64,000 bases of DNA, from NCBI GenBank assembly GCA_944389885.1, contig CALXNZ010000008.1:1-64000 (forward strand). The letters are read 5' to 3'. The stretch is from an uncultured Opitutales bacterium. GTDB lineage: Bacteria > Verrucomicrobiota > Verrucomicrobiia > Opitutales > Intestinicryptomonadaceae. The translations under genes were made by a program, and so were the position numbers. A model generated the notes under the pieces. It saw only the letters and a program-made list of their open reading frames with translations. It searched no databases and was not told the origin of the DNA. Below, piece by piece: positions 1-3,930 of this stretch. How positions within the stretch are numbered: position 1 is the stretch's first letter; each line of letters opens with the position of its first letter.

Positions 1-76
1 TGTAGAATGCGGGGTGAAACTATGAAAGACAAATCTAAAAAATCAACCTATTCCACAACCTTTGGTGTTGACCCAA
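1..76 (+). repeat. Direct repeat copy A (IS right end)
   Basis: Exact 76-base match to 262-337. It contains the transposase stop codon at 23-25 and the presumed terminal inverted repeat at its right edge. The repeat may extend further left outside the window. Confidence 0.9.
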
Positions 77-286
77 TACGAAGCGCCGACAGAGTTTGGG
101 AAACTTGCGGAAACGATAAGCGAATGGTTTGCGCCAATAATCAGGATGTGGAGGTTTACGAAGAATAACGGAATTACAGAAGGCTTCCACCGCAAGATGA
201 AGCTAATCCAAAGACGAGCCTACGGATACAGAAACTTTAAAAATTACCGCTTGAGAGTACTTGTAGAATGCGGGGTGAAACTATGA
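77..286 (+). pseudogene. ISL3-family transposase, C-terminal fragment
   Basis: The frame encodes only the last ~70 residues of an ISL3-type (IS204/IS1001/IS1165) transposase. The tell-tale segment is ITEGFHRKMKLIQRRAYGYR followed by NFxNYRLRV, the conserved C-terminal end of the catalytic DDE domain. The N-terminal zinc-finger, HTH and most of the catalytic domain are missing. The frame is open upstream to 62 only because it reads through the end of the preceding IS copy, so the ATG-like start there is not a real start. It ends at the TGA at 284-286, inside repeat copy B. It cannot encode an active transposase. Confidence 0.8.
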
Positions 287-1377: not shown

Positions 1378-1410
1378 GCCATTATCTGAACCGTTTTGAC
1401 AAATACAGCA

Positions 1411-1438
1411 AAGGGGGTGAGATTTTATCTCCCCCCTT
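1411..1438. terminator. Strong hairpin terminator, probably bidirectional
   Basis: AAGGGGG-T-GAGAT and ATCTC-CCCCCTT form a 12-bp stem with one bulged T and a TTT loop. It lies just past the 3' end of the minus-strand 77-residue gene and closes the tail-fibre cassette on this side. Confidence 0.65.
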
Positions 1439-1467
1439 AATAGTATTATTTTTACAGTCAGACCTCA

Positions 1468-1701
1468 TTAGCCTTCAAAAAATGCTTCCGCCAGTTTTTT
1501 AAGTAATGTTGGATCGATTTTTTCAAGTTCAGGCGGATTGAGAGCGATATAATAATTCCCGGTGTCTGTAAGTCCATCGGAAGTTAGAGGATTTCCAGCC
1601 GCATCGACATAGTCGGCATGCACGTCAACCCTCTTTAGCTTTATATAATTTCCGCCGGATACTTGTAGTATGATGTTTGTATTTTGATTTTCTTCTGACA
1701 T
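1468..1701 (-). CDS. Hypothetical protein, partner of the tail-fibre-like gene
   Basis: A 77-residue unknown with no cysteines, signal peptide or membrane segment. Its N-terminal half is beta-prone (IILQVSGGNYIKLKRVDVHA) and the C-terminus is a short helix (LLKKLAEAFFEG). It starts 10 bases after the stop of the large tail-fibre-like gene and both end at the hairpin at 1411-1438, so the two are co-transcribed. A small product directly downstream of a tail fibre gene is often a fibre chaperone or assembly protein in phages; this role is only suggested by position here. The coding call rests on operon geometry and plausible amino-acid composition. Confidence 0.65.
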   Translation of the reverse strand: MSEENQNTNIILQVSGGNYIKLKRVDVHADYVDAAGNPLTSDGLTDTGNYYIALNPPELEKIDPTLLKKLAEAFFEG

Positions 1702-1711
1702 TGATTTTATC

Positions 1712-3778
1712 CTATTTGCTTAGTATTGAACCTTCCACATGAACTTGTAGCGTCATCGGCGCTACCGAAGGCGAAAATACGAGTGTTTTTTCGGAGTTAT
1801 TGTATATAGTATTCGATTCAACCCATGAATCTTTCACTACTGATACTGTTTGTAGCGATACTCCGCTCCCGTTGTTTATTGTAATCGATCCATTGGCTGA
1901 ACTTTTCATGTAAACTCTAATTTTCGAGTTCTTTGGCAACACTTCCAGTACAGAACTTTTTAAGGCTTTTGGCCCGTTTTCAACCCATACGAGTTTCTCA
2001 TTGATGCTAAAATCTGATAACTGGAGGGTCGATTTTATCGTTCCTACAGAAAATGAATCGTTGTAGTTGCCTGACTTGTCTTGCGATATTTTATCGCACA
2101 GAGCGCCATCAAAGGAGAATAGTGTTCCATTTATCCTTATTTTTAATCCTTTTATCCAAACATATTTTCCTGTTTCCCAAACCCATGTGTTGTCTATAAT
2201 GCTTGTTATAATTCTTATTTCGGTGGAATCGTATTGGGCGGTTGAGGTTATCCATTCACCGGGAACAAGATTTACTTCCAAACTCTTTCCGGAATTCCCA
2301 TAAAAATAGAATCCTACAGACATTGTATATTTTGAAGTAATGCTTTGTTCAATGGATTCGTAATATAGCTCTGCTTGAGTTCCCGGAAGGAATGACAAAC
2401 CGGTTATTCTTATGAGGGCATAAGAATTCGTGTAGTCGGTTGTCACGATAATTTTTATCCCATCTGATTTGTCCAGGGTGTATAGCGATGTTTGCCATGC
2501 TGTCCAATTTGAAGAACTGTCGAAATATTGCGCCTCATTTAATAACATGGGCGGTATATCTTTTCCTTTTGCATAGTCTGAAACGCTATAAAGAGCGTTG
2601 CTTGCCGACATGTCGCAGTTCAAAAGCGTTATTTTTGAAACTATGGCTTTTGCGTACCCGGAAGAATCCGCGCTTCCTCCTATCAGATATGAGGATGGAA
2701 GAATAGATTCCGATATATTTTGTACATTTTGTGATAACGGTGATTGTTGAATTCCGTCTATGAATAATTTAAATTCAGACGGAGAGATGAATATGGCAGT
2801 GTATGCGTGCGCGTCGGATATATATTCCTTCCAGTCAAAGTCCATATAATTCTCGTTTTGGCCGTCGGAGTATTTGAGACGAAGTTCCGGTGACGATTCC
2901 GTGCCGCTAAATATAGCGCTTATGCATGGCGACGAGTTGAATGGCGTTGTCGAAAAAATACGGCAATTTGGAACGAATGTGAATGACCCCGTCCAAGATA
3001 TTGAGACGGGAAGTCTGGGTGCGCTCGACAATGTTCCGGAGAGGTACCCTTTATCAAAATACAATTTTGGATTTTCACGTTTGTTTATCGATAGCGCAGA
3101 GATTTTCGACGTATTGGAATGCGTGTCTTCTGCGAGTTTATCATAAGATTCGTGTGTATGTTCGCTAATTTGGGACTCAAGTTCCACTTTGGTCGCCGCT
3201 CCTATATTTTTACAGGCTTCCTCTTTATCATATATGTCGGCAAGGTTTTCTAATTTTGAGAGATAGTATCCGTCGGCAATATCTTTTGTGAGGGCTTTTT
3301 CCGGAGGAAATATTTGTTCTTCTCCACAGGGGTCTCCGTAGCTTTCCTCAATCTCAATCCAACCGGCCGAAAACGTAGTGCGTTCAGAGCCTTTTCCTAT
3401 TGTATATATGCGGAGCCATTTTGGCCCTTCCGGAATATCGCTCTTACCCTCGCTTATTTCAAATACTACATGGGCTCCGCCTATCTCCATATCGAATTCG
3501 GAAAAGTTTTTATAGATATGGTCGGAATCCACTTCCATGCGCAACAGCGTCTTTTGGCTGCGCGGCGCCGGAGAATTTAAATCGCCTATGTCTATTATTT
3601 CAAGAACGGCCTTTCTCACCGAATCTATATTCGCAATTTTGCCGGAATTAAAAAATACAACGTCGAGTGTTATGTCGTCGTTTCGGCGAAAACGCAGGGG
3701 TTTCCCGGTTTGTGCATTTGTCGGAGAATTAAATTCTGCGACATCGGCATATAACTTAATATGGTTTATTGGATTCAT
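1712..3778 (-). CDS. Phage tail-fibre-like protein (orphan)
   Basis: A 688-residue acidic protein without signal peptide. The N-terminal ~150 residues are beta-rich (start MNPINHIKLYADVAEFN). Around residues 185-215 is a segment of the form GYYLSKLENLADI..KEEACKNIGA, which resembles the NLSDLxDKxxARxNLGL linker typical of phage tail fibres. It is followed by a HTHE stretch recalling the H-x-H metal sites of fibre shafts. The middle (about 240-400) with YFDKGYLSG...SWTGSFTF and AIFISPSEFKLFIDG looks like a concanavalin/LamG-like lectin fold. The C-terminal ~250 residues are further beta-sandwich-like sequence. The longer frame reaches a TTG at 3824-3826, but that TTG lies in a -35 box, so the ATG at 3778 is chosen. 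Origin may be a domesticated prophage or tailocin part; no other tail gene is in the window. Confidence 0.6.
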   Translation of the reverse strand: MNPINHIKLYADVAEFNSPTNAQTGKPLRFRRNDDITLDVVFFNSGKIANIDSVRKAVLEIIDIGDLNSPAPRSQKTLLRMEVDSDHIYKNFSEFDMEIGGAHVVFEISEGKSDIPEGPKWLRIYTIGKGSERTTFSAGWIEIEESYGDPCGEEQIFPPEKALTKDIADGYYLSKLENLADIYDKEEACKNIGAATKVELESQISEHTHESYDKLAEDTHSNTSKISALSINKRENPKLYFDKGYLSGTLSSAPRLPVSISWTGSFTFVPNCRIFSTTPFNSSPCISAIFSGTESSPELRLKYSDGQNENYMDFDWKEYISDAHAYTAIFISPSEFKLFIDGIQQSPLSQNVQNISESILPSSYLIGGSADSSGYAKAIVSKITLLNCDMSASNALYSVSDYAKGKDIPPMLLNEAQYFDSSSNWTAWQTSLYTLDKSDGIKIIVTTDYTNSYALIRITGLSFLPGTQAELYYESIEQSITSKYTMSVGFYFYGNSGKSLEVNLVPGEWITSTAQYDSTEIRIITSIIDNTWVWETGKYVWIKGLKIRINGTLFSFDGALCDKISQDKSGNYNDSFSVGTIKSTLQLSDFSINEKLVWVENGPKALKSSVLEVLPKNSKIRVYMKSSANGSITINNGSGVSLQTVSVVKDSWVESNTIYNNSEKTLVFSPSVAPMTLQVHVEGSILSK

Positions 3779-3797
3779 TTTTGCGGTTTTCGCGCAA

Positions 3798-3826
3798 ATG
3801 ATATCAAAACCCACAATATGTATCAA
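3798..3826 (-). promoter_or_regulatory. Promoter of the tail-fibre cassette
   Basis: On the minus strand TTGATA (3821-3826), 17-base spacer and TATCAT (3798-3803); each box differs from consensus at one base. Transcription would start roughly 12 bases before the ATG at 3778, so the mRNA has a very short leader without SD. Confidence 0.65.
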
Positions 3827-3870
3827 AATAACATTTGATATTTTTGATTAAACGTGACTCTTTTATATTT

Positions 3871-3911
3871 TTGAATGAAAAAGCCCCGTTAATCGGGGCT
3901 TTTTCATTCAA
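3871..3911. terminator. Symmetrical bidirectional terminator
   Basis: Arms of 18 bases around a 5-base loop, with core AAAAAGCCCCG...CGGGGCTTTTT, so both strands end in a T-run after a GC stem. It ends transcription from the minus-strand chorismatase-like gene and insulates the tail-fibre cassette. Confidence 0.85.
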
Positions 3912-3930
3912 AAAATATTTGGCCTTGAAG

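Follow-up and report, generated by a model that had tools for sequence, protein, structure and literature searches.

Organization of the fibre cassette

The window, that is, the whole stretch of 64,000 nucleotides analysed here from an uncultured Opitutales bacterium (family Intestinicryptomonadaceae), is the first part of contig C8, from base 1 onwards, in a 2.2-Mb genome. Close to this contig end, we observed a fibre gene of 688 codons with an ATG start (positions 1712-3778, minus strand) and, separated from it by 10 bp on the same strand, an ORF of 77 codons encoding a partner protein (1468-1701). A hairpin of about -21 kcal/mol lies 3' of the partner gene (1402-1450, minus strand) and is a probable terminator. 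Between the fibre gene and a RidA-like gene, a symmetrical, strand-neutral hairpin with an 18-bp stem (3870-3912, about -29 kcal/mol on either strand) is probably a bidirectional terminator. An earlier note on this DNA had described the fibre-like gene and its partner as a lone unit between two strong hairpins, and both observations were confirmed. It had also reported a near-consensus promoter. The site concerned, TTGATA-17-TATCAT (3826-3798, minus strand), is well placed, matches at 10 of 12 positions and has a TG before the second hexamer, but promoter-like sites occur in the region at chance frequency (13 observed vs 12.0 ± 3.3 expected in shuffled sequence); as the promoter of the cassette it is plausible and no more.

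Ten neighbouring genes of the cassette are ordinary metabolic, transport and regulatory genes (FMN reductase, RidA-like, FeoB, DtxR/FeoA, NadA and similar). When particle-gene profiles were run against the entire window, the fibre was the sole match, in agreement with the earlier claim that no other phage gene lies nearby; on the contig-start side, 1.4 kb is visible beyond the partner gene. This side contains a transposase C-terminal fragment, ISL3-like by eye (62-286, plus strand), and, at 1-60 and 262-321, the two copies of a direct repeat of 60 bp; the end of the contig is probably a break at an insertion sequence. The cassette is AT-rich (GC 0.409 vs 0.469 ± 0.025 for the genome), as is the C-terminal half of the fibre gene (38.6% GC).

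Predicted domains of the fibre and its partner

Scans of the fibre and partner proteins against Pfam, PHROGs and PADLOC gave no significant match; neither tblastn against 50,697 phage records nor scans of IMG/VR with fibre and partner peptide patterns gave any match. The AlphaFold model of the fibre, a single chain (monomer) built from 15 aligned sequences, reached an overall pLDDT of 56 with two confident domains. The first is the N-terminal domain (residues 1-149; 3332-3778, minus strand; pLDDT about 70-94 up to residue 140), in which the model places a BppU-type anchor fold. It aligned to the N-terminal domain of BppU from the TP901-1 baseplate (3uh8) with a Z of 10.7 and an rmsd of 2.5 Å over 112 residues, and to 4v96 and 9c39 with a Z of 11.3 each; the phage neck proteins 9c39 and 9mt4 were also among the fold matches of this domain. 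BppU (ORF48 of the lactococcal phage TP901-1) carries the receptor-binding protein on the baseplate. Unlike in BppU, anchor and receptor-binding domains are here parts of a single polypeptide of 688 aa, and sequence identity is about 10%.

The anchor is followed by a linker with predicted helices and the NLADIYDKEEACKNIGA motif (3065-3331, minus strand). This stretch, already noted as NLADI..KEEACKNIGA, is common to the relatives of the fibre, with the consensus NLxDLxDxxxARxNLG, and the linker profile matched a short tail fibre of known structure (9zd7, E 5e-21). The HTH motif mentioned in the earlier note is present as His-Thr-His within this linker. Next comes a middle domain (residues 239-406; 2561-3064, minus strand) that is probably lectin-like, at low model confidence: it matched lectin-type domains with a VIA-align Z of about 8 at a pLDDT of about 30-60, so the lectin-like sequence announced earlier is retained at that confidence only. 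Residues 413-571 were also modelled at low confidence. The second confident domain is a C-terminal jelly roll (residues 585-688; 1715-2026, minus strand; pLDDT about 70-90), predicted to resemble carbohydrate-binding modules, with a Z of 8-9 to CBM6/CBM29 and to the phage YomS, XepA and cement proteins.

The partner profile matched near the fibre gene in the other readable cassettes of the window's family and after the fibre gene in a prophage of genome G001. To judge from this position, the 77-aa partner is a probable fibre chaperone or accessory protein.

Fibre relatives in a particle cluster across the order

Relatives of the fibre N-terminal domain were detected in 49 of the 140 genomes of the order. 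In Puniceicoccales MAGs with genomes of 0.8-1.0 Mb, which we take to be from termite guts from their isolate codes, the fibre gene stands inside a compact cluster in the order TerS, TerL, portal, protease, F4, capsid, F1, F8, F7, fibre, hub, F29. A shorter cluster, with the fibre gene after F1, was observed in Cerasicoccus arenae and G037. The idea of a detached receptor-binding module, put forward in the earlier note, is supported by the baseplate-anchor fold together with these relatives in phage structural clusters of other families. The search for N-terminal copies beside tail genes, which had been proposed for the same genome, found a single copy in the window's genome; it is in related genomes that such copies stand beside structural genes.

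The portal of the cluster belongs to Portal_Mu (PF06074, E 9e-54), the protease is of the Mu I type, TerL has both terminase domains and the capsid is of the phage capsid family. The hub F6, modelled at a pLDDT of 76, is predicted to have the gp27/VgrG/Mu gp44 fold, with a Z of 22.7 to the PVC spike and of 18.4-18.5 to Mu. F1, F7, F8 and F10 gave no significant family match. With PF10145 no tape measure was recognised in the cluster, a profile that missed even known prophage tape measures, and the T4 tube family search matched in no control genome. The contractile sheath profile PF04984 had no match in the window's genome while the controls were positive; a very divergent sheath could escape it. 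Near one particle cluster, we also observed a repeat-rich protein of 992 aa whose C-terminus is PEP-CTERM-like (L071:8279-11257).

Three loci in the genome of the window

Contig C2 of the window's genome carries an orthologous cluster, portal-protease-F4-capsid-F1-F8-F7-hub-F10, whose capsid is 58% identical to that of G122. This cluster contains neither a fibre gene nor TerL: the gap between F7 and the hub gene, which the fibre anchor relatives fill in the Puniceicoccales clusters, is about 150 bp and empty. TerL was found on contig C9, adjoining a TerS-like gene, amid unrelated genes. A small conserved gene lies near TerS-TerL in four species (L247:10424-10837, L249:11371-11778, L251:7906-8313 and L252:8654-9058); its membrane-protein-like product of about 135 aa has one hydrophobic segment followed by a coiled-coil-like region, reminiscent of the small pre-terminase genes of Mu-like phages.

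The cassette was present in 15 of the 19 listed genomes of the window's family, and in none of these 15 was the fibre gene near a capsid gene; in G001, a genome of three contigs, 75 kb separate the two. Among 30 genomes of other families, the fibre gene lay within 3 kb of a capsid gene in 21, and in the remaining nine the two were on different contigs, some probably through contig ends. Co-occurrence of fibre and capsid gave a Fisher p of about 2e-14, a value uncorrected for shared ancestry and not used here as proof. Four fibre-positive genomes had no capsid gene, and in G002 and G007 capsid and TerL were present and the fibre undetected. Single gene absences weigh little, since rpoB was also undetected in several genomes besides G010. 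In G010 itself, joint loss of capsid, TerL and fibre was considered and dropped, as rpoB was also absent and the genome yielded almost no candidates for anything.

Inheritance and selection

The trees of TerL and rpoB from 20 genomes had 11 of 17 splits in common; when labels were permuted, the mean was 0.27 and no permutation exceeded 3. The TerL and rpoB distances were correlated (0.81). The two trees conflicted within a genus over the placement of G003 and G009. TerL had a dN/dS of 0.07-0.12, which indicates purifying selection, and its ATPase and nuclease signature residues (motifs assigned from sequence) were invariant. The chromosomal neighbours of the cluster were kept within a genus: in several species it is flanked on one side by PurH and a LysM/TPR protein, and in two species by UGPase and GalE on the other. 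Among the 17 flanking genes scanned in four genomes, we found no integrase or transposase; the flanks were housekeeping genes.

The anchors of the detached fibres formed one clade with a support of 1.000, and its subgroups matched pairs of hosts. In the window, G001 and G011, one and the same RidA-like gene adjoins the cassette; in the first two, FeoB and DtxR are also near it. Taken together, the single clade and the common RidA-like locus suggest that the fibre was probably detached once, in the ancestor of the window's family, and has been inherited since, with some relocation between subclades.

Comparison with gene transfer agents and bacteriophage Mu

Gene transfer agents (GTAs) are made of tailed-phage-related proteins, are fully endogenised, often at multiple loci, and are mostly inherited vertically with co-diversification with the host; they package mostly random host DNA in a head too small for their own genes and deliver it to cells (PMC9662315). 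Single GTA loci may hold one or two genes (PMC9662315, PMC11841831). As to the first feature, Portal_Mu, the Mu-like protease, the terminase domains, the capsid family and the hub fold all relate the present genes to tailed phages. The genes are endogenised at several loci, on C2, C8 and C9, with housekeeping flanks. Vertical inheritance is seen in the TerL/rpoB splits and the single clade of fibre anchors, with one conflict within a genus. These three features are the ones that sequence can test. On this basis we read the gene pair as GTA-like: the cassette is likely to be where the receptor-binding fibre, now detached, and its probable chaperone are encoded for a particle that packages DNA and is phage-derived, domesticated and vertically inherited.

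Like RcGTA of Rhodobacter capsulatus, BhGTA of Brachyspira and BaGTA of Bartonella, this putative particle combines phage-derived head and packaging genes, dispersed loci and vertical inheritance. Unlike them, it belongs to another phylum and has a Mu-type portal, protease and capsid and a smaller cluster with no recognised tape measure. With bacteriophage Mu it has in common the families of the portal (PF06074), protease I, terminase and capsid, the gene order and a hub of the gp44/gp27 fold, whereas it differs from Mu in having no transposase in the scanned flanks, no sheath gene in the genome and, in the window's family, a module split over contigs. Our searches of open-access papers turned up no GTA from Verrucomicrobiota.

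Prophages and possible exchange of receptor-binding ends

The window's genome also contains, on contigs C17 and C15, two prophages that combine a Mu-type head with tape-measure genes (L073-L076). The dispersed TerL of the window's family has theirs as its sister, and the prophages could be related to the domesticated particle or have escaped from it. In G001, the fibre and partner of a prophage (L032:8138-10398) resemble the C-terminal half of the cassette fibre and its partner. This resemblance to a prophage of a sister species suggests module exchange between the cassette and phages of the same hosts; the receptor-binding end of the cassette seems to change fast.

These observations could also be read differently: an ordinary prophage, for instance one of the Mu-headed pair on C15 and C17 with their related heads, might use the cassette for fibre switching, as a spare fibre or one that has been relocated. 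The G001 prophage genes and the AT-richness of the cassette would fit this explanation, which we nevertheless hold to be unlikely: the N-terminal anchor is single-copy in the genome, prophages included, the fibre of the G001 prophage differs at the N-terminus, and presence in 15 of 19 family genomes as one clade tracking host pairs is unlike the fibre of one prophage.

A further explanation is that the cluster and cassette are old prophage remnants, or belong to an order-wide prophage family co-diverging with its hosts, and have no present host function. All the genes are phage-derived and known GTAs closely resemble remnant phages. Against this, nearly all genomes have intact ORFs, selection on TerL is purifying, the chromosomal neighbours of the cluster are kept within a genus, and the cluster is retained by genomes of 0.8-1.0 Mb, which makes this explanation quite improbable.

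Finally, there is very little probability that the cassette serves a tailocin or an extracellular contractile injection system, as had been proposed earlier, or is a cell-surface adhesin: the nearest fold matches of the hub are indeed spikes of injection systems, PVC and AFP among them (Z 21-23), and the fibre has carbohydrate-binding-like domains, but the hub fold is also common to Mu gp44 and T4 gp27, the genome had no match to the sheath profile, the intact portal, protease, capsid and terminase of the cluster speak against a tailocin, which has no head or packaging genes, and a baseplate-anchor domain is unexpected in a surface adhesin. The earlier suggestion of a domesticated adhesin thus appears right as to domestication, in the wider sense of the whole particle locus, and not as to a mere adhesin.

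Proposed particle and its implications

Returning to a GTA-like particle, we infer, beyond the directly observed gene content, co-inheritance, selection on TerL, predicted folds and a fibre missing from the cluster but present at another locus, that such a particle forms, mounts the fibre, packages host DNA and delivers it. The particle would be encoded at three places, with TerS-TerL on C9, the head-to-hub cluster on C2 and the fibre-partner pair on C8. Its head would be built from the Mu-type portal, protease and capsid proteins, loaded with DNA by TerS/TerL and closed by a short tail tip on the gp27/VgrG-fold hub. The fibre would dock via its BppU-type N-terminal domain, the 77-aa partner aiding its folding or trimerisation, and its lectin/CBM-like C-terminal half would bind a surface glycan of a related cell.

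Several observations count against this reading. In an HK97-type prophage (L253:9682-10353) and in another phage-like locus (L254:8946-9653), large fibre-like genes are preceded by a separate short gene for a BppU-like anchor, so the anchor alone cannot assign the fibre to the particle. The cluster has no recognised tape measure, which leaves DNA delivery unexplained, and the cassette is AT-rich, as recently exchanged DNA would be. The undetected fibre of G002 and G007, the fibre-positive genomes without capsid and the TerL/rpoB conflict over G003 and G009 weigh in the same direction.

In its widest form, the proposal is that of an undescribed, order-wide GTA of Verrucomicrobiota that has a Mu-type head and a minimal tail, lacks a tape measure and persists even in presumed termite-gut bacteria of 0.8-1.0 Mb; in gut Opitutales, terminase and fibre would have left the cluster, and the fibre would be a free-standing module trading receptor-binding ends with resident prophages. 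We regard the case for and against this wider proposal as evenly balanced. If true, a Verrucomicrobiota lineage would bring in a further phylum and one more independent domestication event, that of a Mu-type phage, and a locus kept in genomes down to 0.8 Mb would strongly signal selection for it. The detached fibre would also account for a pair of phage-like genes standing alone, which annotation would otherwise label an orphan, the cassette illustrating that a fibre is able to leave its cluster yet remain with the host lineage. The idea is open to direct test in cultured Cerasicoccus strains, whose cluster is contiguous.

A search of IMG/VR with the capsid alignment recovered 10 contigs. One of them, L185, of 16 kb, carries all genes of the TerS-to-F29 cluster, arranged as in bacterial chromosomes; although catalogued as viral, it may not be a phage but chromosomal DNA filed in the wrong place.
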